A DNA stretch of 20,379 nucleotides, taken from the IMG/VR virus record IMGVR_UViG_3300010392_000215, positions 1 through 20,379 of that record; one strand, given 5' to 3'. Both the position numbers and the translations under genes were made by a program. The DNA is from a virus. Shown one piece after another: positions 1 through 8,679 of this stretch (position 1 is the first letter of the stretch; every line of letters begins with the position of its first letter). A model generated the notes under the pieces. It was not told where the DNA came from and searched no databases. It worked only from the letters and a program-made list of their open reading frames with translations.

Positions 1-3000
1 GAACCTGCTCACTTGAATACGGTTTGCCTATCTTCTTAACATCCATATAAACAAGGTTAGACTCTCCTTCAAAGGGAGATGTACCAGGCCTGCCCGGAGT
101 AAGCTCTTTACTTTTTATCTCAACAGCATCCAAATCCAGATGAGAGGCCTTCATACTTGATACGCCGCTACGTTCCAGATTTTCCATGTATTCAAGATAT
201 TCAGACTCAAATAAACGGTAAAAATCTTCCTGTTCTTTTACCGGCAAAGCAGGAATGCGCCCGGTAACCTTTCTGGCCCCACCAATTATATCTTTAGCCC
301 CGAAACTTTTTAAAGGTTCGCCCAGTTTGCGGTGTAGATCCAAATTTTCCGAAAGCAGTTCAGCTACAATTTTATCACCGTGCTCATTCATAAAATCCAG
401 AGTGTCATTAGACGACACAGCAGAATCACTATCAGCCGTGGTGCTGGCATTAAGCGAAGCCATTTTCTTTTGCAGTACGGCGGCAGGTCTTTTCTCTGCG
501 GGAATATCTGCATTGAGAAGTGTGAAACCCGGCAGTTCCACCTGCCCGGTACGATGAATACGACCAAGGGTCTGCATAAAAGTATCAATATTCTTTTCTG
601 CCTGAGCAATCAGCATCCTACGCGGACGCTGATCCTTAAATTTCTCACTTGCATGCAGAGACAACCCCGTTGAACCGGCGCAATTGATGATAACAGCATC
701 AATAGAACCACCGTTGAATCCATCAATTACTGTGCGCGGAGCAGTTTTCTTTCTTTTATAATAAGTTGGTGCGTTCTTATCGCTATAGTCGATTGAGTGT
801 TCCCGACCTGTGATTTCATCAACCACATACCCGGAATTAGTAAGTTCCTGACGTATGAAATCGATAGGACTCATGGGAAGACCAGACAAATCAATATTAC
901 GAATATCGCGCTTGATTGAATTGAAATGACGCACTGCAACAGGACCGAGTTCAGAATCCGTGAGTCTTTTCTTTTGTTTCACTCCAAAAGGATCACCGAT
1001 CACTATTTCACGAGATCTCTCCAGATAGCGTTCAAGCAGATCCCCAAAATGAATATCAATGATTTGACCGGGAGCAATGTCGTTGTCTTTAGCATAGCTT
1101 TCAACCATAGAACCCATGGTGTTTGCTAAAGCAATAACGGGTTTCTCACCACGCTCAAGATGATTCCGTGCCATTTCAACCGTGGCTTCAGCCTTCAGAC
1201 ACAAAAGCATCTGATCAATCACGTTGTGCATCAGACTGGTGAAGTTCGTACTGGCTGCGCCAGCCTCACCGACAGAACCATCTGGAAGGATATTATTGCC
1301 GGCAGAAGAAAGCTCAGTGTCGATCGAGGCAAGAGCACCGGCTTTCAGATCGTCAAATACAATTATATCCTGCATGACCCTGCCGACCGCATCGGCAAGT
1401 TTCTTTGAGGCGGGGACCGTCTTGGTATCGAATGTCACCCCTTCGAACGATCGCTCCCTACGGACATACTGACCGGATTCGGTCAACATAGTGGCAACCA
1501 CCTGCTGCATCGGCACACCGCCGCTGGAAATAGCCTCACCAAGCTGGGAAACATCATCTACAGCCTTAACCATGTCCGTTTTAAAATAGAGATCCATAAC
1601 ATCCGGGCGCTTGGCAAAAGTCGCACTGGAATAAAAAGCACCGTATGGGCTTTCCTGAAGGATCTCGCGAACAAATTGAGAACGGGGCATCTTGCCCTTA
1701 GCAGGAGTGACGGAACTGCCGCCAGCGTTATGACTTTCATCAAGAATAAACATTGCACGGGAAGCAATGCCCCTTATGAATTGCTGACGAGGATTTTTCT
1801 TTTTACCTAAGGATTGGAGCTGATTATAGGTTGTGAAAACAACATCGTATTTATCGGTACGTTCAGCAGCAATATCCAGCATCAGCTTTTGTTTCTTAAC
1901 CGGGGAATGCTTTTCGGTTAAACTGCCATCACCCTTTTTAAATACGCTGTCTTTTTTCTCTATATTGGTGATAAAAATCCCTTCCTGCGATTCACCTATA
2001 TCATCCATATCACGGATCATATCACCATACAGGTTGGGTTTTTCAGTAAGAAAAACAGGGATCACCCCGTTACGCCGGGCGTAGCGAATTATAGCAGCAT
2101 TGACGCGACCTTTACCGATACCGGTCTGGTCTCCAATGATGAAACCTTTGCGTTCTTTGAGATTAGAGATGGCAAGACCTACAGCGTCCACCTGTTCGGC
2201 GGCAAGAACCTTGCCCAGCTCCTGTACGCTATAGCCCAGTTCGGAAGCTACAAAGCTATCAACATTGCCATATTTTGAATCAAGAAGGGATAGCGCGTTC
2301 TCTGTCGCATGCGCCATGTTTCGAGGAGTGAGAACTTCCATGGAAGTCCCCGACGAAGAGGGAGTATATCCGACTTGAAAATCTGTCTCTACCTCTCCAT
2401 TCCGTACCCTGCGATGGTTCTGGCCCACTCTTCCGCGCTCAGATCTTCTTGAAGCGGATCCGGATCGTCCTGCCGTCTCAGAACTCCTTTCAGCGGAAAC
2501 TCGTCCAGACTTGGAATCAGAGCTAGATTTTCTTTCATCTGCAATTTCAATGTCTCGTTTTGATCGACCAGAATCAGTCCTAAAATGTTCCGATTCTTCT
2601 CGCTCAGATCCCCGACCGTATCCCCGAACCTTTCGAATAGAATCATTTCCACTTCCTGCGCTACTTCCACCGGATTCTCTTCGCGCTCCAGCATCAGCTG
2701 CACTCTCAGAGACAGAAGAGTCCAATAATAGTCCCTTGTCTCCACTTCTGTTTTTCCTTCTGGAAGCCAGACTCTTGTTATCATCTGTGCTGCTGGATTC
2801 TCCTCCAGTTCCTTGGGAACTACGTAATACTTCCCTATCTTGGGTATATACGGATTGTTCATTGAATTCATCAAACTTTGTCTCCAGCTCCTCAAATGAT
2901 TCGTAAACACGGGGCAACTCAGCAGCAGGTTGCGGACGGGAGGATTTTCCGCGACCGTTAATCACGATAATATCAATCGGATATGCAGCCCCTTGTCTGC

Positions 3001-5863
3001 TGTACATTTTACCATCAAGGGTAAAATGGTCAACGACATTATATTCATTAAATAATGTGGAGTAAAAAGCTCTCTGTGTTTGAGCTCGATACTTTTTCTG
3101 TCTAGTCTCAGTATTACCCTTTTTACCGCCTATAATGATGACAGCTTTCCCGTCATCCTTCATGGCATGCAGGGCATGCAACGCAATCGCATGATCCAAT
3201 TCCTTAGTACGATATTGATTATTTATTTTCCATATCTTCGGCTTGCCATTTTCACGAAGCCGGCCAAAAGGAGGATTCATTACAACGGCATCAAATTTAC
3301 CTTCCGGCAGAAAGACCGTTGCATCATTATTATGGACAGTTTTAAATTTATGAAATTTTTTAAGATTAGAAACTCTGTCTTTACTAAGCTCATTAACTAA
3401 AACTTTGCCTTCCGCCGCAGCGAGAACAAGCATACCATTTCCGGCTGTAGGCTCATAAACCTTGCTCTGTTCAGAGATACCAGCAAGCTCGGAAGCCAGA
3501 AACGCAATCGGAGCCGGAGTACTGTAAGCCTGATTGTTAACAGAAGAACTAGAACGCACGCCAAGAACAGGCTGTTGCTCATAAAGGGCAACCATATCTT
3601 TAAATATTTCCTGACTGGAACGGCCCTGCTTACGTAACTCTCGTACACGCCCTTTTGCCGCAAGAACAGTCGCTACTTCGAAATCCTCATCAAAGGCCTT
3701 GGCTTCTTCAGAGCCAGGAAGAACTTCACGATCTATCCCTTTCTCGCCCAGATCATGCTTAATGAATTTTCGAGCTTCGGTAATTGATTTAAAATTACGC
3801 CCTGAAGCCAATTCGTTCACAACAGAATCCACTGTCATGTGCTGCACATCTTCTGATGCCTGACGCTTTGACGTCATGACGTCTTGACGTTGTGACGGTT
3901 CAGCTATTTCCATTTCGAAAACAGTTGGTCCAACTTCAATTGGCTCCAAAGATGAACCACCTTGCACAGGCACTGCCGGCAGATCCACAGCAACAGGATC
4001 TTGAGGTGCTGTAGCAGATCTTGTTTCGAGTTCCTGAACTGCCACATCCCAAGCATCTTTAAGAGACTGATCCCATTCACGGTTAAACTGCCCGGCATCA
4101 GCTGCATCCTGATCATAATCAGGATGAGCCACAACTTCAGAATCTACAGGACGGAATTGACCAACTCCATCAAAAGAAGCAGGAGCTACTGGATGCTCTA
4201 CAGGAAGAGCTTCAGGACTACGCGTTGGTTTACGAATCCCTTCACGCATCTGCCAAAGTTGATCCAGATCAGCTTCAGCAGGTTTACCGGCCACAACTTC
4301 CGGAGTGGCCATACCGAACATACCGGAAGCTTTACGAAACCTGTTTTCTCGATACTGGTCACTGAAACCGGTCATTCCACCGACTTTGCCTGAAACCACC
4401 TGAGGCGGGTTCTGCAACAACAGATCTATCGGTTCAAACGGAGCTGGAACTTGCGGATCTCCGGACACAGACAGCGACTCAGCACCAGCAAATTCAGCAG
4501 GCCTCCATCCGTCACGTATAGCCATTTCACGTTTGATGCGCTGCTCAAGATCAGGCTCAGGCCTGTGACGATAACGCTCCTGAATCCCTGCCTTCAAATC
4601 AGACATTCCAGCCGGGGACTCAAACTGCGAATCAATCACCTGCTGCATGCCAAAGCCGGATTGTTCAGTTCCCTGCTCTTTTTCCTGCTGGGAATAAAAT
4701 TCACTCATGCGCTGCAAAGGAGACCTTATATCCGGCTCTTTCCGCGCTTCCATGTTCTGACGGCTTGACGTCATGCCGTCATGACGTTCTAAAGCTTCGG
4801 CGTCACCTTCAAGCAGATCCACGGTTGCGCCGGCTTTGATCTGCTCAATCTGCTCGATGAAACTCTGATTGGAACTTTCTTCCTCTCCGGACAGACCAGC
4901 AGGGCCGGACATCACAGAACCACCAACACCAGTTAGTGCAGCAGGACCGATTACGTTCACGCCTTCTTTAGCTGCTTGTTTAACTCGCTTCCAGACACCG
5001 GGCTTCATTTCCCCGGTTTCAATATAATGTGCCAGATCCTTTGAGATAGACTCTGCCGGTTCTTCAGCCCATTCACTGATTCCTTCTACAGCACCGGAAC
5101 CAACATGTTTGGCTGTCTTAGCTGCAATCCCCTGCCCGGCCTTGGAAAACATTTTACCAAAGGAAAGAGCGTTCAGCCCGGCACTGGCCAAAGCCATGAG
5201 CTCGCCGGCACGAGCTGCTTCCTTTTCTGAACCACCGGCTTCCAAAACTTCCCGGTATGTGCTGGTCCCTTCCATTGCACCACCGCCTGCACCAGCTCCC
5301 AGAGCCTGCCCGATACGCGCAGCGCGTTCAAGAACCTTTGGAGTAAGCTGCAAAGCCTTCCCGCCAACCTGAACAACCTTACCAACAGCAGCTCCCGGAA
5401 TCATAGCCGCCCCCAGGGAAGGAGCTAAGTTACCAACCTGATACGACCACCAGTCACCGCGCTTCAATAGTGCTGGATTATCCACCACATTACCCTGCAA
5501 CTCCTTGGCAGGGGCATGGTATTCACGCAACGGCTTGTAGTAATCTGCGATCGCTTCCCCGGCTTCAGTCACAGACCCACTGTCCACCCGGTTACCCAGC
5601 CACTGTAGCCCAGCACCAAAAGATTCCCCCAGCCCGGCAGATCCGGCGGCAAGTCCATGATACATCCCCTCAGCGGAATCAATGGCTGAATCTACGAAAG
5701 GCATTCCAAAGCCGGATCGCTCCGGAACAGCGGTATCAGTATGCGCCTTAGCTCCAGACAAAAAGACCGGGCCTCCCTGATCAGGAGAACCCGGTGCATT
5801 CTGTGTGTTATGTTCAATTTCCAGTTCCCTGACAGCCTGGTCAAACAAGGCATTCATATCCAT
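1..5863 (-). CDS. Giant DarB-like polyvalent virion protein: N6-adenine methylase plus strawberry-notch helicase (3'-truncated by window edge)
   Basis: One frame is open from ATG 5863 (GGAGGG upstream, 2 bases after the previous stop) to the window edge, 1954 codons. Residues about 60-280 are Gly/Ala-rich with hydrophobic runs near 145-165, as in ejected internal virion proteins. Residues about 770-960 are a Rossmann N6-adenine methylase: SAM motif EPTAGNGML at 804-812 and catalytic NPPFGR at 863-868. Residues about 985-1160 are a Ser/Arg/Gly-rich linker. An SF2 helicase of the strawberry-notch type follows: GDQTGIGKGR with K1251, DESH at 1375-1378, GSTGLSLH at 1730-1737 and arginine-finger motif GRIHRTGQ at 1767-1774. 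P1 DarB, a virion protein protecting incoming DNA from type I restriction, and the 'polyvalent proteins' share this architecture. Position at the end of the ejection-protein block fits injection with the genome. Domain calls are firm; the anti-restriction role is inferred. No stop or frameshift was found at the motif positions checked, which are all in one frame. Confidence 0.88.
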   Translation of the reverse strand, partial: MDMNALFDQAVRELEIEHNTQNAPGSPDQGGPVFLSGAKAHTDTAVPERSGFGMPFVDSAIDSAEGMYHGLAAGSAGLGESFGAGLQWLGNRVDSGSVTEAGEAIADYYKPLREYHAPAKELQGNVVDNPALLKRGDWWSYQVGNLAPSLGAAMIPGAAVGKVVQVGGKALQLTPKVLERAARIGQALGAGAGGGAMEGTSTYREVLEAGGSEKEAARAGELMALASAGLNALSFGKMFSKAGQGIAAKTAKHVGSGAVEGISEWAEEPAESISKDLAHYIETGEMKPGVWKRVKQAAKEGVNVIGPAALTGVGGSVMSGPAGLSGEEESSNQSFIEQIEQIKAGATVDLLEGDAEALERHDGMTSSRQNMEARKEPDIRSPLQRMSEFYSQQEKEQGTEQSGFGMQQVIDSQFESPAGMSDLKAGIQERYRHRPEPDLEQRIKREMAIRDGWRPAEFAGAESLSVSGDPQVPAPFEPIDLLLQNPPQVVSGKVGGMTGFSDQYRENRFRKASGMFGMATPEVVAGKPAEADLDQLWQMREGIRKPTRSPEALPVEHPVAPASFDGVGQFRPVDSEVVAHPDYDQDAADAGQFNREWDQSLKDAWDVAVQELETRSATAPQDPVAVDLPAVPVQGGSSLEPIEVGPTVFEMEIAEPSQRQDVMTSKRQASEDVQHMTVDSVVNELASGRNFKSITEARKFIKHDLGEKGIDREVLPGSEEAKAFDEDFEVATVLAAKGRVRELRKQGRSSQEIFKDMVALYEQQPVLGVRSSSSVNNQAYSTPAPIAFLASELAGISEQSKVYEPTAGNGMLVLAAAEGKVLVNELSKDRVSNLKKFHKFKTVHNNDATVFLPEGKFDAVVMNPPFGRLRENGKPKIWKINNQYRTKELDHAIALHALHAMKDDGKAVIIIGGKKGNTETRQKKYRAQTQRAFYSTLFNEYNVVDHFTLDGKMYSRQGAAYPIDIIVINGRGKSSRPQPAAELPRVYESFEELETKFDEFNEQSVYTQDREVLRSSQGTGGESSSTDDNKSLASRRKNRSGDKGLLLDSSVSESAADAGARRESGGSSAGSGNDSIRKVRGYGRGSEREESEHFRTDSGRSKRDIEIADERKSSSDSKSGRVSAERSSETAGRSGSASRRSERGRVGQNHRRVRNGEVETDFQVGYTPSSSGTSMEVLTPRNMAHATENALSLLDSKYGNVDSFVASELGYSVQELGKVLAAEQVDAVGLAISNLKERKGFIIGDQTGIGKGRVNAAIIRYARRNGVIPVFLTEKPNLYGDMIRDMDDIGESQEGIFITNIEKKDSVFKKGDGSLTEKHSPVKKQKLMLDIAAERTDKYDVVFTTYNQLQSLGKKKNPRQQFIRGIASRAMFILDESHNAGGSSVTPAKGKMPRSQFVREILQESPYGAFYSSATFAKRPDVMDLYFKTDMVKAVDDVSQLGEAISSGGVPMQQVVATMLTESGQYVRRERSFEGVTFDTKTVPASKKLADAVGRVMQDIIVFDDLKAGALASIDTELSSAGNNILPDGSVGEAGAASTNFTSLMHNVIDQMLLCLKAEATVEMARNHLERGEKPVIALANTMGSMVESYAKDNDIAPGQIIDIHFGDLLERYLERSREIVIGDPFGVKQKKRLTDSELGPVAVRHFNSIKRDIRNIDLSGLPMSPIDFIRQELTNSGYVVDEITGREHSIDYSDKNAPTYYKRKKTAPRTVIDGFNGGSIDAVIINCAGSTGLSLHASEKFKDQRPRRMLIAQAEKNIDTFMQTLGRIHRTGQVELPGFTLLNADIPAEKRPAAVLQKKMASLNASTTADSDSAVSSNDTLDFMNEHGDKIVAELLSENLDLHRKLGEPLKSFGAKDIIGGARKVTGRIPALPVKEQEDFYRLFESEYLEYMENLERSGVSSMKASHLDLDAVEIKSKELTPGRPGTSPFEGESNLVYMDVKKIGKPYSSEQV
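2389..2871 (-). CDS. Overprinted small gene inside the giant protein's linker (unknown function)
   Basis: A 160-residue ORF in the +1 frame relative to the giant gene, lying wholly inside its methylase-helicase linker. ATG 2871 was chosen because GGAG lies 10 bases upstream and GAGGAG just before that; ATG 2910 would add 13 residues and ATG 2862 is a third option. The product is protein-like: 21 Leu (13 as CTG), Pro mostly CCG or CCA, alternating charged and hydrophobic positions predicting helices (residues about 48-80 and 95-120), no Cys and three Trp. The main frame over the same bases is low-complexity, with about 19 of 25 Arg codons being AGA, AGG or CGA. This contrast suggests that selection acts mainly on the +1 frame here. 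I recognise no family. Alternatives are a chance open frame or a product of +1 frameshifting from the methylase. Expression is unproven. Confidence 0.62.
   Translation of the reverse strand: MNSMNNPYIPKIGKYYVVPKELEENPAAQMITRVWLPEGKTEVETRDYYWTLLSLRVQLMLEREENPVEVAQEVEMILFERFGDTVGDLSEKNRNILGLILVDQNETLKLQMKENLALIPSLDEFPLKGVLRRQDDPDPLQEDLSAEEWARTIAGYGMER
2882..2893 (-). promoter_or_regulatory. Ribosome binding site candidate for the overprinted gene
   Basis: On the minus strand, GAGGAG (2893-2888) and GGAG (2885-2882) precede ATG 2871; the nearer one is spaced 10 bases from it. Both lie within codons of the giant gene encoding a Glu-Glu-Leu-Glu stretch, so they could be incidental. They nevertheless make 2871 the best-supported start of the embedded ORF. 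Confidence 0.45.
3861..3900. repeat. Five tandem 8-bp TGACGNNN repeats inside the giant gene
   Basis: On the plus strand five consecutive octamers begin with TGACG at 3861, 3869, 3877, 3885 and 3893; their last three bases are CTT, TCA, TCT, TTG and GTT. The second unit is the perfect palindrome TGACGTCA. The array lies just upstream of the methylase domain and is translated on the minus strand as RQDVMTSKRQ and flanking residues, at about residues 655-668. Because 8 is not a multiple of 3, gain or loss of one unit would shift the frame of the giant gene. Confidence 0.85.
4758..4789. repeat. Second TGACGNNN octamer cluster (four units)
   Basis: Four consecutive octamers at 4758, 4766, 4774 and 4782 read TGACGGCT, TGACGTCA, TGCCGTCA and TGACGTTC, so one unit has an A-to-C change. 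The second unit is again the palindrome TGACGTCA. The minus-strand translation is RHDGMTSSRQ at about residues 359-368, similar to the peptide of the other cluster about 890 bp away. The two clusters appear related by sequence, not only by period. Confidence 0.8.
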
Positions 5864-5865
5864 AA

Positions 5866-7413
5866 TTACCCTCCATACCTGCTTGAGCTTACTCCGGGTC
5901 TGGTCGGCACTGTCCGGATATCTTTCTGTTTATTCAAAATTCGTTTCGCACCTTCAACACCATATTGCTGGATGAGAGTCTTGATCTCATCCACCTGCTT
6001 ACGCTGGTCCGGATTTTCAGCCGGAATATGGCCGGAGCCCCGCTGAAGGATCTGCTGATAAATTCCAACCGCCTGCCCGGCAGCCTGTAATCTGGTTTTA
6101 TCGGCCTCGGTTTCAGGTTTCCACTGTCCCGAATTATAGCTTTCGACCAGCTTGGAGGCATCGTTAAAAGCATTGTTACCTTCATCTGTGAGTTCACCGG
6201 TAGTAAAATCAATCAAGGTTTTGCCTTTCTGATGGAACGGCTTGAGTGCATCACCAAGGGACTTGCGCATCTGAACCAATTGTTCAGCAGCCTGTTTATC
6301 CGGTATGTTTGCGGTTTCAGCCTGAATCTTTTCAGTCTCGGATTGAATCTTCCCGGTCGAGGCACGGGACTTGTCGGCATCAGCATATGTCTTTCCGGTC
6401 TGCGCTTTGGTATGGGCTATATCTGCCTGACCTTTAATAAGCCCCTGCTTTCTCTCACGCAGATCCATAGTGGTACGAACATACCCCGGTAGCCGATCCA
6501 AAGAATCAACCATCATTGTCTGACCGTTATCCTCATCCAGCACCATGAAATGCGTACCTTGAGAATAATCAAGACTGTTCTGGGGGACGGCCTGAATCAT
6601 ATGTCCGTCTTTATTCACCAGCGAGATCCACTTGGAAGGATCTTTTAGATTTTGAGCATTACCTAGTCTCGTAGCTTCCATATACCGGTCAGCAGCTCCA
6701 GCAAAAACAGGATTATATGTCCTGCCGCCCTGCATAGTCTTTTCCCCGGCTAGAAACTGTTGAATGACATTTCCGGTCTGCTCAATAGTCAGCCTGCGTC
6801 CTGTAGGAGCCCAGCCACCTTCTTTGTCGGATCGAAATTCTATGCCGTAAGTTTTGGAGCGCGGATCAAAGTCTGTGAGTCTATAAGGCATGGGAGCAAG
6901 TTCAGAAGCTCTTTTCATATCAATGACAGCCGCATCAAAATTGCCTTGGGAAATCTCATTTAACGCGCTACCACCTACCTTCCTAAATTCCTTATAGGTC
7001 TGATCAATCTTATGCATTCTGCGTTGCTTAAGGGCTTCTTTCCCGGCTTCAAACTTTGTAGCCAAGTCAGCAGCATGACCAAACGCAGAAATACCTACCA
7101 ATGTCTTAGGAGGCTCAATGGCATCAAAGTCCCAATCATTCTGTCTAAGTTTGCCCAGCAATCTTTCTGTTTCTTTTTGGACAGCACTATTAAAACGGAG
7201 CTGTTCTGCCTGCTGGAATTGACCGTATCGAGTGTATGCCTTCTGCTGGTTGCGCGAGCTAATTCCATCGGGCATTCCCTGACCAGAAGCCAAATTATTA
7301 TATGCGCGATCCACCTGCTGACCATCAGAATAGGCATTCATAGCATCAGTCAAACCGCCCATAGCACCCACAATCTGACCAGCTGTCTCATCTCCTAAAA
7401 AACCGAATCCCAT
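5866..7413 (-). CDS. Long helical internal virion (DNA ejection) protein candidate
   Basis: A 515-residue protein starting at ATG 7413 after a GGGGGG tract. It opens with a Gly-rich hydrophobic stretch (residues 1-25), then is mainly helical and charged. Residues about 330-375 form a short-period repeat of Thr-Gly-Lys and Ala/Glu-Thr units (AQTGKTYADADKS, STGKIQSETEK), a pattern seen in long coiled coils of phage internal proteins. No enzyme motif was found. It sits directly upstream of the giant enzyme (2 bases between stop and ATG) and downstream of two other low-complexity proteins, the place where P22-type phages encode ejection proteins. The ejection role is inferred from position and composition. 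Confidence 0.6.
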   Translation of the reverse strand: MGFGFLGDETAGQIVGAMGGLTDAMNAYSDGQQVDRAYNNLASGQGMPDGISSRNQQKAYTRYGQFQQAEQLRFNSAVQKETERLLGKLRQNDWDFDAIEPPKTLVGISAFGHAADLATKFEAGKEALKQRRMHKIDQTYKEFRKVGGSALNEISQGNFDAAVIDMKRASELAPMPYRLTDFDPRSKTYGIEFRSDKEGGWAPTGRRLTIEQTGNVIQQFLAGEKTMQGGRTYNPVFAGAADRYMEATRLGNAQNLKDPSKWISLVNKDGHMIQAVPQNSLDYSQGTHFMVLDEDNGQTMMVDSLDRLPGYVRTTMDLRERKQGLIKGQADIAHTKAQTGKTYADADKSRASTGKIQSETEKIQAETANIPDKQAAEQLVQMRKSLGDALKPFHQKGKTLIDFTTGELTDEGNNAFNDASKLVESYNSGQWKPETEADKTRLQAAGQAVGIYQQILQRGSGHIPAENPDQRKQVDEIKTLIQQYGVEGAKRILNKQKDIRTVPTRPGVSSSRYGG

Positions 7414-7422
7414 ACAGCCCCC

Positions 7423-7926
7423 CTACGACATTAAATATATTCCAAGACCAATGGCAGCACCCACAGCTGCACCGATGGGTCCAGCAGAAGAACCTGCGGC
7501 GGCTCCACCGGCGACAGTTCCACCGGCAGCAGCTCCACCGGCAGCCGCTCCACCGGCGGCAGCTCCACCAGCAGCAGCTCCACCGGCGGCAGCTCCACCG
7601 GCAGCAGCTCCACCTGCGGCAGCTCCACCGGCAGCAACTCCAGCAGCAGCTCCACCGGCAACAGCTCCACCGGCGGCAACTCCAGCAGTGGTTCCAGTTG
7701 TCAGTGCAGTGCCACCGATTATGCCTGCCTCAGTCATAGCTGTTGATGCAGACATCCCCATCATACCGCCCTGAAATCCTGAAACAGCAGCTCCTGTAGC
7801 AGACTTCCCCGGCTTCTTTTGAGTTGGGGTTTTCCGGCTCATCATTGAAGCAGTATTGGAAGCAGCCGCCATACCGGACAGGGCTTTATCACCAGGGTTC
7901 TCAACTTCAAACATTCCTAAAGGCAT
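7423..7926 (-). CDS. Glycine-zipper repeat protein, candidate membrane-active ejection protein
   Basis: A 167-residue protein with a strong GGAGGG site before ATG 7926. The N-terminus (1-50) holds a basic stretch (RKTPTQKKPGK). Residues about 84-142 are a tandem array of the pentapeptide Ala-Ala-Gly-Gly-Ala, giving overlapping GGAAAG and GxxxG patterns. The C-terminus (about 145-167) is hydrophobic and small-residue rich, with GAAVGAAIGLGIYLM. Glycine zippers pack helices in membranes and occur in some pore-forming and phage ejection proteins. The neighbours are other candidate ejection proteins. Pore function is inferred; an alternative is an unstructured spacer produced by repeat expansion. 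The proline- and leucine-rich ORFs in the other frames of this stretch are repeat shadows. Confidence 0.65.
   Translation of the reverse strand: MPLGMFEVENPGDKALSGMAAASNTASMMSRKTPTQKKPGKSATGAAVSGFQGGMMGMSASTAMTEAGIIGGTALTTGTTAGVAAGGAVAGGAAAGVAAGGAAAGGAAAGGAAAGGAAAGGAAAGGAAAGGAAAGGTVAGGAAAGSSAGPIGAAVGAAIGLGIYLMS
7502..7678. repeat. 15-bp tandem repeat array (glycine-zipper coding)
   Basis: On the plus strand the unit GCTCCACCGGCRGCA repeats with few substitutions: nine consecutive 15-bp units at 7502-7636, one shortened 12-bp unit at 7637-7648, and two further units at 7649-7678. Length changes keep the frame, so copy number can vary without destroying the protein. Variation between units is mostly synonymous, pointing to selection for the encoded Ala/Gly pattern. 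Confidence 0.88.
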
Positions 7927-7935
7927 AAATCCCTC

Positions 7936-8679
7936 CTAAGCCATCCCGATGGATGATGCCGCGCCAAGACGTCTAAAATTTTCTTCCTCAGCATTCCTTC
8001 GCGCCTTCGTCCTTGCCCCCGCAGCACTCTGCGCCTGGGAAAGAGTTAAATCCTTCTGCATGGCCGCAAACCTTCCGGAATTTGTATTAAGACCGGCACG
8101 AGAAAAATTACGCTGCGCCTTTGCTCCGGCCATTCCGTATCCATGGCTTACATCCGCCTCGGCCTGAGAGACACGACTATCAACATCAACTCCCTTAAGG
8201 GCCTGATCCATAAGCTCCTGCCTGACTCCATACTGCTTCTTCTTTGCTTCGGTCTGGAGAGGCAACAACTCGCGCTTTGATGCAATTTGCTCTTTGGATA
8301 GTCCAGTTTCTAGGGGTATGAGTTCACGCCTGGCTCCAATCTGTTCTTTGGATAAATCAGTCTGAAGAGGAAGAAGTTCACTCTGTGCGGCTATCTGCTG
8401 TTTCATCAAATCGGCTTGATAAGGAATAAGCTCACTGTTTGCGGCAATCTGTTTCCGCTCCATGGGCTGATAGTCTGATTTCCAGAAATCAAAATACTCT
8501 TCAGCCATTCCCTGCTGGGATTCGTAAATTGTAGCCATACGAGCGTTGTATTCTTCATCAACCGCATCACCGCCTCCGCCACCTTTACAAAGAGCTACAG
8601 GGCCATCATAATCATAAGATTCTTCATGCTCGATCTCGCCGGACGCGATATCAATAACGAGCTTAGTGTAAACTTTCAT
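7936..8679 (-). CDS. Repeat-containing virion protein with a recurrent phage N-terminal motif
   Basis: A 247-residue protein whose ATG 8679 lies 17 bases inside the preceding gene, with GGGAG 9 bases upstream. Residues 1-33 (MKVYTKLVIDIASGE then SYDYDGPVALCKG) match a short N-terminal signature that I recall from several unrelated-looking phage structural proteins. A Gly5 linker follows. Residues about 76-155 hold four to five 18-residue repeats around QIAxxxELLPLQTDLSK, predicted amphipathic helices. The C-terminal third is rich in Ala, Ser and Arg (NFSRAGLNTNSGR). It occupies the position of the P22 ejection proteins gp7 or gp20, but no homology to them is visible. A structural or ejection role is inferred from context; biochemical function is unknown. 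Confidence 0.62.
   Translation of the reverse strand: MKVYTKLVIDIASGEIEHEESYDYDGPVALCKGGGGGDAVDEEYNARMATIYESQQGMAEEYFDFWKSDYQPMERKQIAANSELIPYQADLMKQQIAAQSELLPLQTDLSKEQIGARRELIPLETGLSKEQIASKRELLPLQTEAKKKQYGVRQELMDQALKGVDVDSRVSQAEADVSHGYGMAGAKAQRNFSRAGLNTNSGRFAAMQKDLTLSQAQSAAGARTKARRNAEEENFRRLGAASSIGMA
8215..8454 (-). repeat. 18-residue (54-bp) helical repeat array
   Basis: Residues 76-155 of the 247-residue protein contain repeat units starting at Lys76, Lys93, Lys111, Lys129 and Lys147, spaced 17, 18, 18 and 18 residues. The consensus is K-Q/E-Q-I-A/G-x3-E-L-L/I-P-L-Q/E-T-D/G-L-S. The repeats are clear in protein but diverged in DNA, suggesting old duplication followed by selection on the helix pattern. 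Confidence 0.8.

Follow-up and report, generated by a model that had tools for sequence, protein, structure and literature searches.

A gene can be nested within another gene, as is Rz1 within Rz in phage lambda. A second overlap of this kind is that of p19 within p22 of the tombusviruses (PMC11044054). Among the large proteins of mobile elements, DarB of phage P1 protects DNA from type I restriction (PMC5512222), and the methylase-helicase polyvalent proteins of the Strawberry-notch type are found on phages, plasmids and conjugative elements (PMC5512222). The locus described here lies on the 20,379-base viral contig IMGVR_UViG_3300010392_000215, which was analysed over its full length and is called the window. 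Within it, a small gene would be nested, in frame +1, in the linker that joins the two enzymatic domains of a giant methylase-helicase, would be initiated internally, and would encode a partner of the enzyme. To this statement as a whole we assign a probability of about 0.5.

The giant gene and its second frame

The phage structural genes of the contig are encoded on the minus strand and include virion-type genes for a portal/head-tail adaptor, a major capsid protein and an internal virion protein; the giant gene is located downstream of these virion genes (Table 1). Its product consists, in this order, of an N-terminal region, an N6 adenine methylase with an NPPFG motif near position 3277, a linker, and a Strawberry-notch-type helicase with its Walker A motif (GDQTGIGKGR) near position 2134. 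A methylase and a Strawberry-notch helicase joined in one protein of a mobile element place it among the polyvalent proteins. Its closest annotated homologues are cyanobacterial plasmid proteins of about 45% identity, and no contig related to the window through the major capsid protein carries a clear copy of the giant gene; the contigs L002 and L003, whose major capsid proteins are 100% and 75% identical to that of the window, both end before it. Elsewhere in the window, flanked by virion-like genes, positions 7423-7926 (minus strand) encode a predicted protein in which an Ala/Gly repeat (AAAGG-like) recurs about ten times in tandem.

Table 1. Features of the giant gene and of the gene nested in it.
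Feature	Positions	Strand	Description
Giant main ORF	2..5863	-	1954 aa, cut by the contig end
N6-methylase domain	2984..3616 (borders approximate)	-	Pfam N6_Mtase, E = 2.4e-5; PHROG DNA methyltransferase
Strawberry-notch-type helicase (AAA_34 + Helicase_C_4)	341..2194	-	Pfam, E = 1.4e-25 and 6.1e-22
Main-frame linker within the overlap	2393..2872	-	Ser/Arg/Gly/Glu-rich, 12% hydrophobic
Nested gene	2389..2871	-	160 codons + stop; stop 2389-2391, ATG 2869-2871; +1 relative to the main frame
Shine-Dalgarno-like GGAG	2882..2885	-	10 nt before the nested ATG; AGGAG further up

In the linker, which by its composition is probably disordered, the first-pass annotation had proposed an overprinted gene, on the grounds of a 160-codon overlap open in both frames, a Shine-Dalgarno site before the ATG, the choice of AGA, AGG or CGA for about 19 of the 25 main-frame arginines, and the use of CTG for 13 of the 21 leucines of the +1 frame. 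The coordinates and the start signal were recovered as claimed, and the recounts were exact (AGA 7, AGG 5 and CGA 7 for arginine). The same three codons serve 72 of 234 arginines in the remainder of the giant gene and six other genes, and the arginine codon use of the overlap is atypical for these genes. From stop to stop the nested frame spans 190 codons, the longest +1 open stretch in the giant gene, followed by one of 91 codons. When the main protein was held fixed and its codons were redrawn synonymously from the gene's own usage, the +1 frame was open in 23% of trials, so that its openness is no evidence by itself here and was dropped as an argument for this window.

As no close relative of the linker was found, the case of the window is carried by distant homologues, to which its nested protein is 11-28% identical. 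Single-sequence searches with this protein in phages and viral contigs gave no match, because the family is too diverged for such searches. A leave-one-out HMM, built without the window, identified the nested ORF as the sole significant match among 240 window ORF segments (E = 1.8e-7), with a score of 29 compared with at most 14 in 1000 shuffles.

Conservation, start signal and selection

A homologous +1 ORF is present in the same linker at all 126 loci that have the two domains and whose nested product could be recognised, which come from phage contigs, cyanobacterial plasmids and genomes, Desulfovibrio and alphaproteobacteria, and at 45 of 45 loci with both domains in a further set. The expectation that a genuine gene should not be broken by stops in homologues that keep the linker is therefore borne out, the +1 ORF being uninterrupted throughout both sets. 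In both sets, as at all 31 loci from L211 to L241, it occupies the +1 frame of a single continuous main ORF. When viral sequences were searched specifically with the nested protein, 43 loci were returned; at each of the 42 with both domains the protein is encoded in frame +1 of the giant gene, and at the remaining one, a truncated contig, it likewise lies in +1 relative to the helicase. A helicase alignment was used in two scans, which yielded 80 viral and 80 genome loci; at most of these the +1 frame has an open stretch of 90-230 codons, usually ending 78-132 codons before Walker A, and the +2 frame is usually open for 20-100 codons. Long open +2 frames (132-238 codons) occur in the linkers of L202, L085, L150, L063 and L120, and could be due to composition, frameshifts or other nested genes.

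The nested family has 114 members, 79 of them non-redundant, with overlaps of 92-176 codons, and its products align as one family marked by a W-x-P start, a central L-x-x-R helix, N-x-x-L, F-P and a final L-x-x-W helix. Chroococcidiopsis plasmids and Picosynechococcus show the same nested arrangement, and in Gloeobacter the gene, lying mid-linker, was annotated by PGAP (WP_230844304.1, 149 aa). Cultured carriers include Picosynechococcus PCC 7117 and Leptolyngbya PCC 7375. On that Gloeobacter plasmid (L043:3429-8353) RefSeq starts the helicase gene after WP_230844304.1, although the open main frame extends from 2468 to 8353, and the methylase half is missing from the gene table. In Leptolyngbya sp. 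SIOISBB (L142:4203-11119) a frameshift follows the nested ORF, so that the ORF of the methylase stops there and the nested protein shares its frame with the helicase; its position as an N-terminal part of the helicase reflects either a natural frameshift or a sequencing error.

Over the 79 families no +1 stop was observed against 155 expected, and +2 stops showed no depletion (881 observed against 650 expected), in a count that is biased in that the loci were partly chosen for having the +1 ORF, although only few loci with long linkers had been left out. On the helicase tree the presence of the nested ORF is clustered (15 changes versus 21 in shuffles), several of the rows scored as absent being truncated contigs or below the HMM threshold. 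The nested arrangement is old; it is shared by phages, plasmids and bacterial genomes and is not particular to this phage.

The start signal is shared with the main frame. In the window the Shine-Dalgarno duplex has an energy of -6.4 kcal/mol, and its GGAG falls within the main-frame codons for FEELETKFDE; in relatives the equivalent place is taken by AAGGAG, within the conserved main-frame motif (Q/E)LKEKL, so that a single stretch of DNA serves both frames. When the first ATG within the length range of each family was taken without regard to its Shine-Dalgarno, the duplex energy was -7 or lower in 64% of 78 families, as against 3.5% of 3911 helicase-body ATGs. A +1 stop lies within 10 codons upstream of the nested ATG in 53 of the 79 families, and is often a TAA directly before it. 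These sequence features give the nested gene a ribosome-binding site and a start of its own. In some members (Gloeobacter, Desulfovibrio) the +1 frame extends upstream without a stop well into the methylase, as would be expected if programmed frameshifting, rather than internal initiation, produced a fusion of methylase and nested domain; the strong Shine-Dalgarno and the in-frame stops ahead of the ATG led us to reject such expression for most members, and as a general explanation it is very improbable.

Constraint on the +1 frame, which the first-pass annotation had put forward as a check, proved strong in 23 disjoint sequence pairs, four of which involve near-duplicates. Pooled dN/dS values were 0.31 (nested frame), 1.44 (main frame within the overlap) and 0.094 (helicase). 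Differences per site at main positions 1/2/3 were 0.199/0.098/0.087 in the overlap and 0.091/0.060/0.353 in the helicase, that is, main third positions change about four-fold less in the overlap than in the helicase (chi-square p ~1e-184). In the +1 geometry the third base of each main codon is the second base of a nested one, and the differences in the overlap pile up at the third position of the nested frame. The usual codon-position pattern is therefore reversed, which shows that the nested frame is the one under selection; in these pairs purifying selection acts on it and not on the overlapping main frame. Codon usage, more typical in the nested frame in 55 of 79 families (mean -0.16 versus -0.46), also favours the nested frame as the native one, except in AT-rich members.

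Two other readings of the overlap can be weighed against these data. A Ser/Arg/Gly-rich main frame and the GC content might by themselves make +1 stops rare, as the probability of an open frame, 0.23 for the window alone and up to 0.95 in GC-rich relatives, would allow; this reading is refuted by the codon-position test and is also opposed by the conserved +1 protein, the conserved Shine-Dalgarno, the confident fold and the free-standing copy described below, so that we regard it as very improbable. The strong conservation of main-frame third positions could also mark an RNA or DNA element, e.g. a recombination or packaging site, instead of a gene, but the concentration of differences at the nested third position and the low nested dN/dS form a coding signature, and a free-standing protein homologue exists, which makes such an element scarcely credible. 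With a conserved +1 protein family, its own start signal and purifying selection, the overprinted gene first called probable is upheld, and on the sequence evidence we consider it almost certainly real and translated.

Predicted fold and possible roles of the product

Modelling with family alignments by AlphaFold gave a pLDDT of 86.9 and a pTM of 0.84 for the nested protein of the window, and 95.2 and 0.88 for a viral relative, and predicts one compact alpha/beta domain without known relatives. Foldseek found no match for the product (best E = 0.48 in PDB and 1.1 among viral models), and sequence comparison placed it in no supported family of Pfam, NCBIfam, PHROG or PDB; one or two members gave weak hits in Pfam, NCBIfam and PHROG (E 0.003-0.01), which were taken as chance. 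The predicted fold would thus be one not seen before. No description of the nested gene was found in the literature, in a search that most subscription papers lay outside. The nested products are small and acidic, with a median pI of 4.5 and a median net charge of -10.

In 18 genomes and in samples of 386 cyanobacterial genomes, 398 genomes from the phylum of L166 (Pseudomonadota) and 297 from that of L131 (Thermodesulfobacteriota), the matches with examined surroundings all lie in the giant gene, save one. This free-standing homologue, in Coleofasciculus sp. LEGE 07092 (L178:798-1316, minus strand), has its other frames closed and is about 26% identical to the nested copies of the same genome, which indicates that the protein can exist without the overlap. 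It lies about 4 kb from a nested copy and has a Shine-Dalgarno-like GAGAGG before its ATG.

Since the nested gene occurs almost only inside the giant gene, its role is most likely tied to the methylase-helicase, and near-exclusive residence, a common transcript and an internal start speak in favour of a dedicated partner. Ribosomes would initiate internally on the mRNA of the giant gene, the small acidic protein would be made beside the methylase-helicase, and it might bind the enzyme and regulate or mature it, for example by keeping it inactive until delivery with the incoming DNA; by analogy with the DarB proteins, the giant protein may be carried in the virion and injected, of which the location of its gene downstream of virion genes is no more than suggestive. 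The co-occurrence behind this proposal would, however, arise from physical nesting anyway, and the free-standing copy counts against it in showing that the gene can live outside. The partner role is therefore a tentative reading of the sequence data, with a chance slightly below even.

The product could instead be an independent counter-defence or anti-host protein, such as a small acidic inhibitor of restriction or defence, produced together with the enzyme without binding it. The size and acidity of the nested products and the free-standing copy agree with this, as does a location on phages and plasmids in the gene of an anti-restriction-type enzyme (compare P1 DarB against type I restriction, PMC5512222). 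Such genes are usually mobile, and the nested gene is nearly always in the same gene; the product also has no fold match in PDB or among viral models. It is, moreover, far less charged than the classical DNA mimics Ocr and ArdA. We consider an independent role unlikely, although it is the chief rival to that of an enzyme partner.

Origin of the linker and comparison with known systems

Whether the linker was read over an already constrained gene or the reverse had been posed as a choice by the first-pass annotation; the first option is favoured, with the nested frame constrained and the linker as its passenger. The linker keeps little beyond its composition, and it is rich in Arg and Gly because nested GAA and GAG codons, read directly one base earlier, become AGA, CGA or GGA. 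The disordered Ser/Arg/Gly linker seems to be a side effect of the nested gene. The shortest distances from methylase to Walker A (241-268 residues; Vogesella, Pleionea, Fulvivirga and two Bacteroidota) go with absence of the nested ORF, most carriers have 313-420 residues, and the extra linker of carriers is about as long as the nested gene. These lengths fit two histories: a gene was inserted into the linker, or two enzymes were fused by read-through of an intervening gene. A possible, though rather doubtful, history is that an ancient small protein of new fold, perhaps once encoded on its own between a methylase gene and a helicase gene that were still separate, was trapped in their fusion, that the disordered linker exists only by read-through, and that the small protein serves as the dedicated regulator of the enzyme in phages and plasmids of several bacterial phyla.

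Few long nested genes are conserved between distant phages, plasmids and bacteria, and such genes are suppressed by annotation pipelines; this one is missed nearly always, and the pipeline that caught it in Gloeobacter shortened the helicase gene instead. With this family come an apparently new protein fold, a natural case in which to ask which of two frames is the older, and a candidate for the regulation of a widespread class of DNA-transfer enzymes. As it also warns, a disordered linker in a giant phage protein may be a second gene's shadow.

Like DarB of P1 and the DarB-like proteins of Bcep22/PBC5-like phages (PMC5512222, PMC6630229), the window protein unites an N6-adenine methylase and, after it, a helicase-like ATPase in one very large phage protein. 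The label DarB-like, given at first, holds only loosely: the methylase is shared (Pfam N6_Mtase in both), and the helicase is SNF2-type (SNF2-rel_dom) in P1 DarB and AAA_34/Helicase_C_4, of Strawberry-notch type, in the window; P1 DarB, functionally the best known of the relatives, has no significant match to the window-type helicase model and no nested homologue. The Strawberry-notch methylase-helicase dyads known from polyvalent proteins have the same domain pair (Iyer et al. 2017, PMC5512222); an overlap is nowhere mentioned in the text of that paper. As in Rz1/Rz and p19/p22, a complete gene lies inside another in a different frame with its own initiation signal; unlike in those pairs, the protein is an unrelated one, the host frame is a poorly conserved linker, the overlap runs to 92-176 codons, and the arrangement is found in several bacterial phyla as well as in their viruses.
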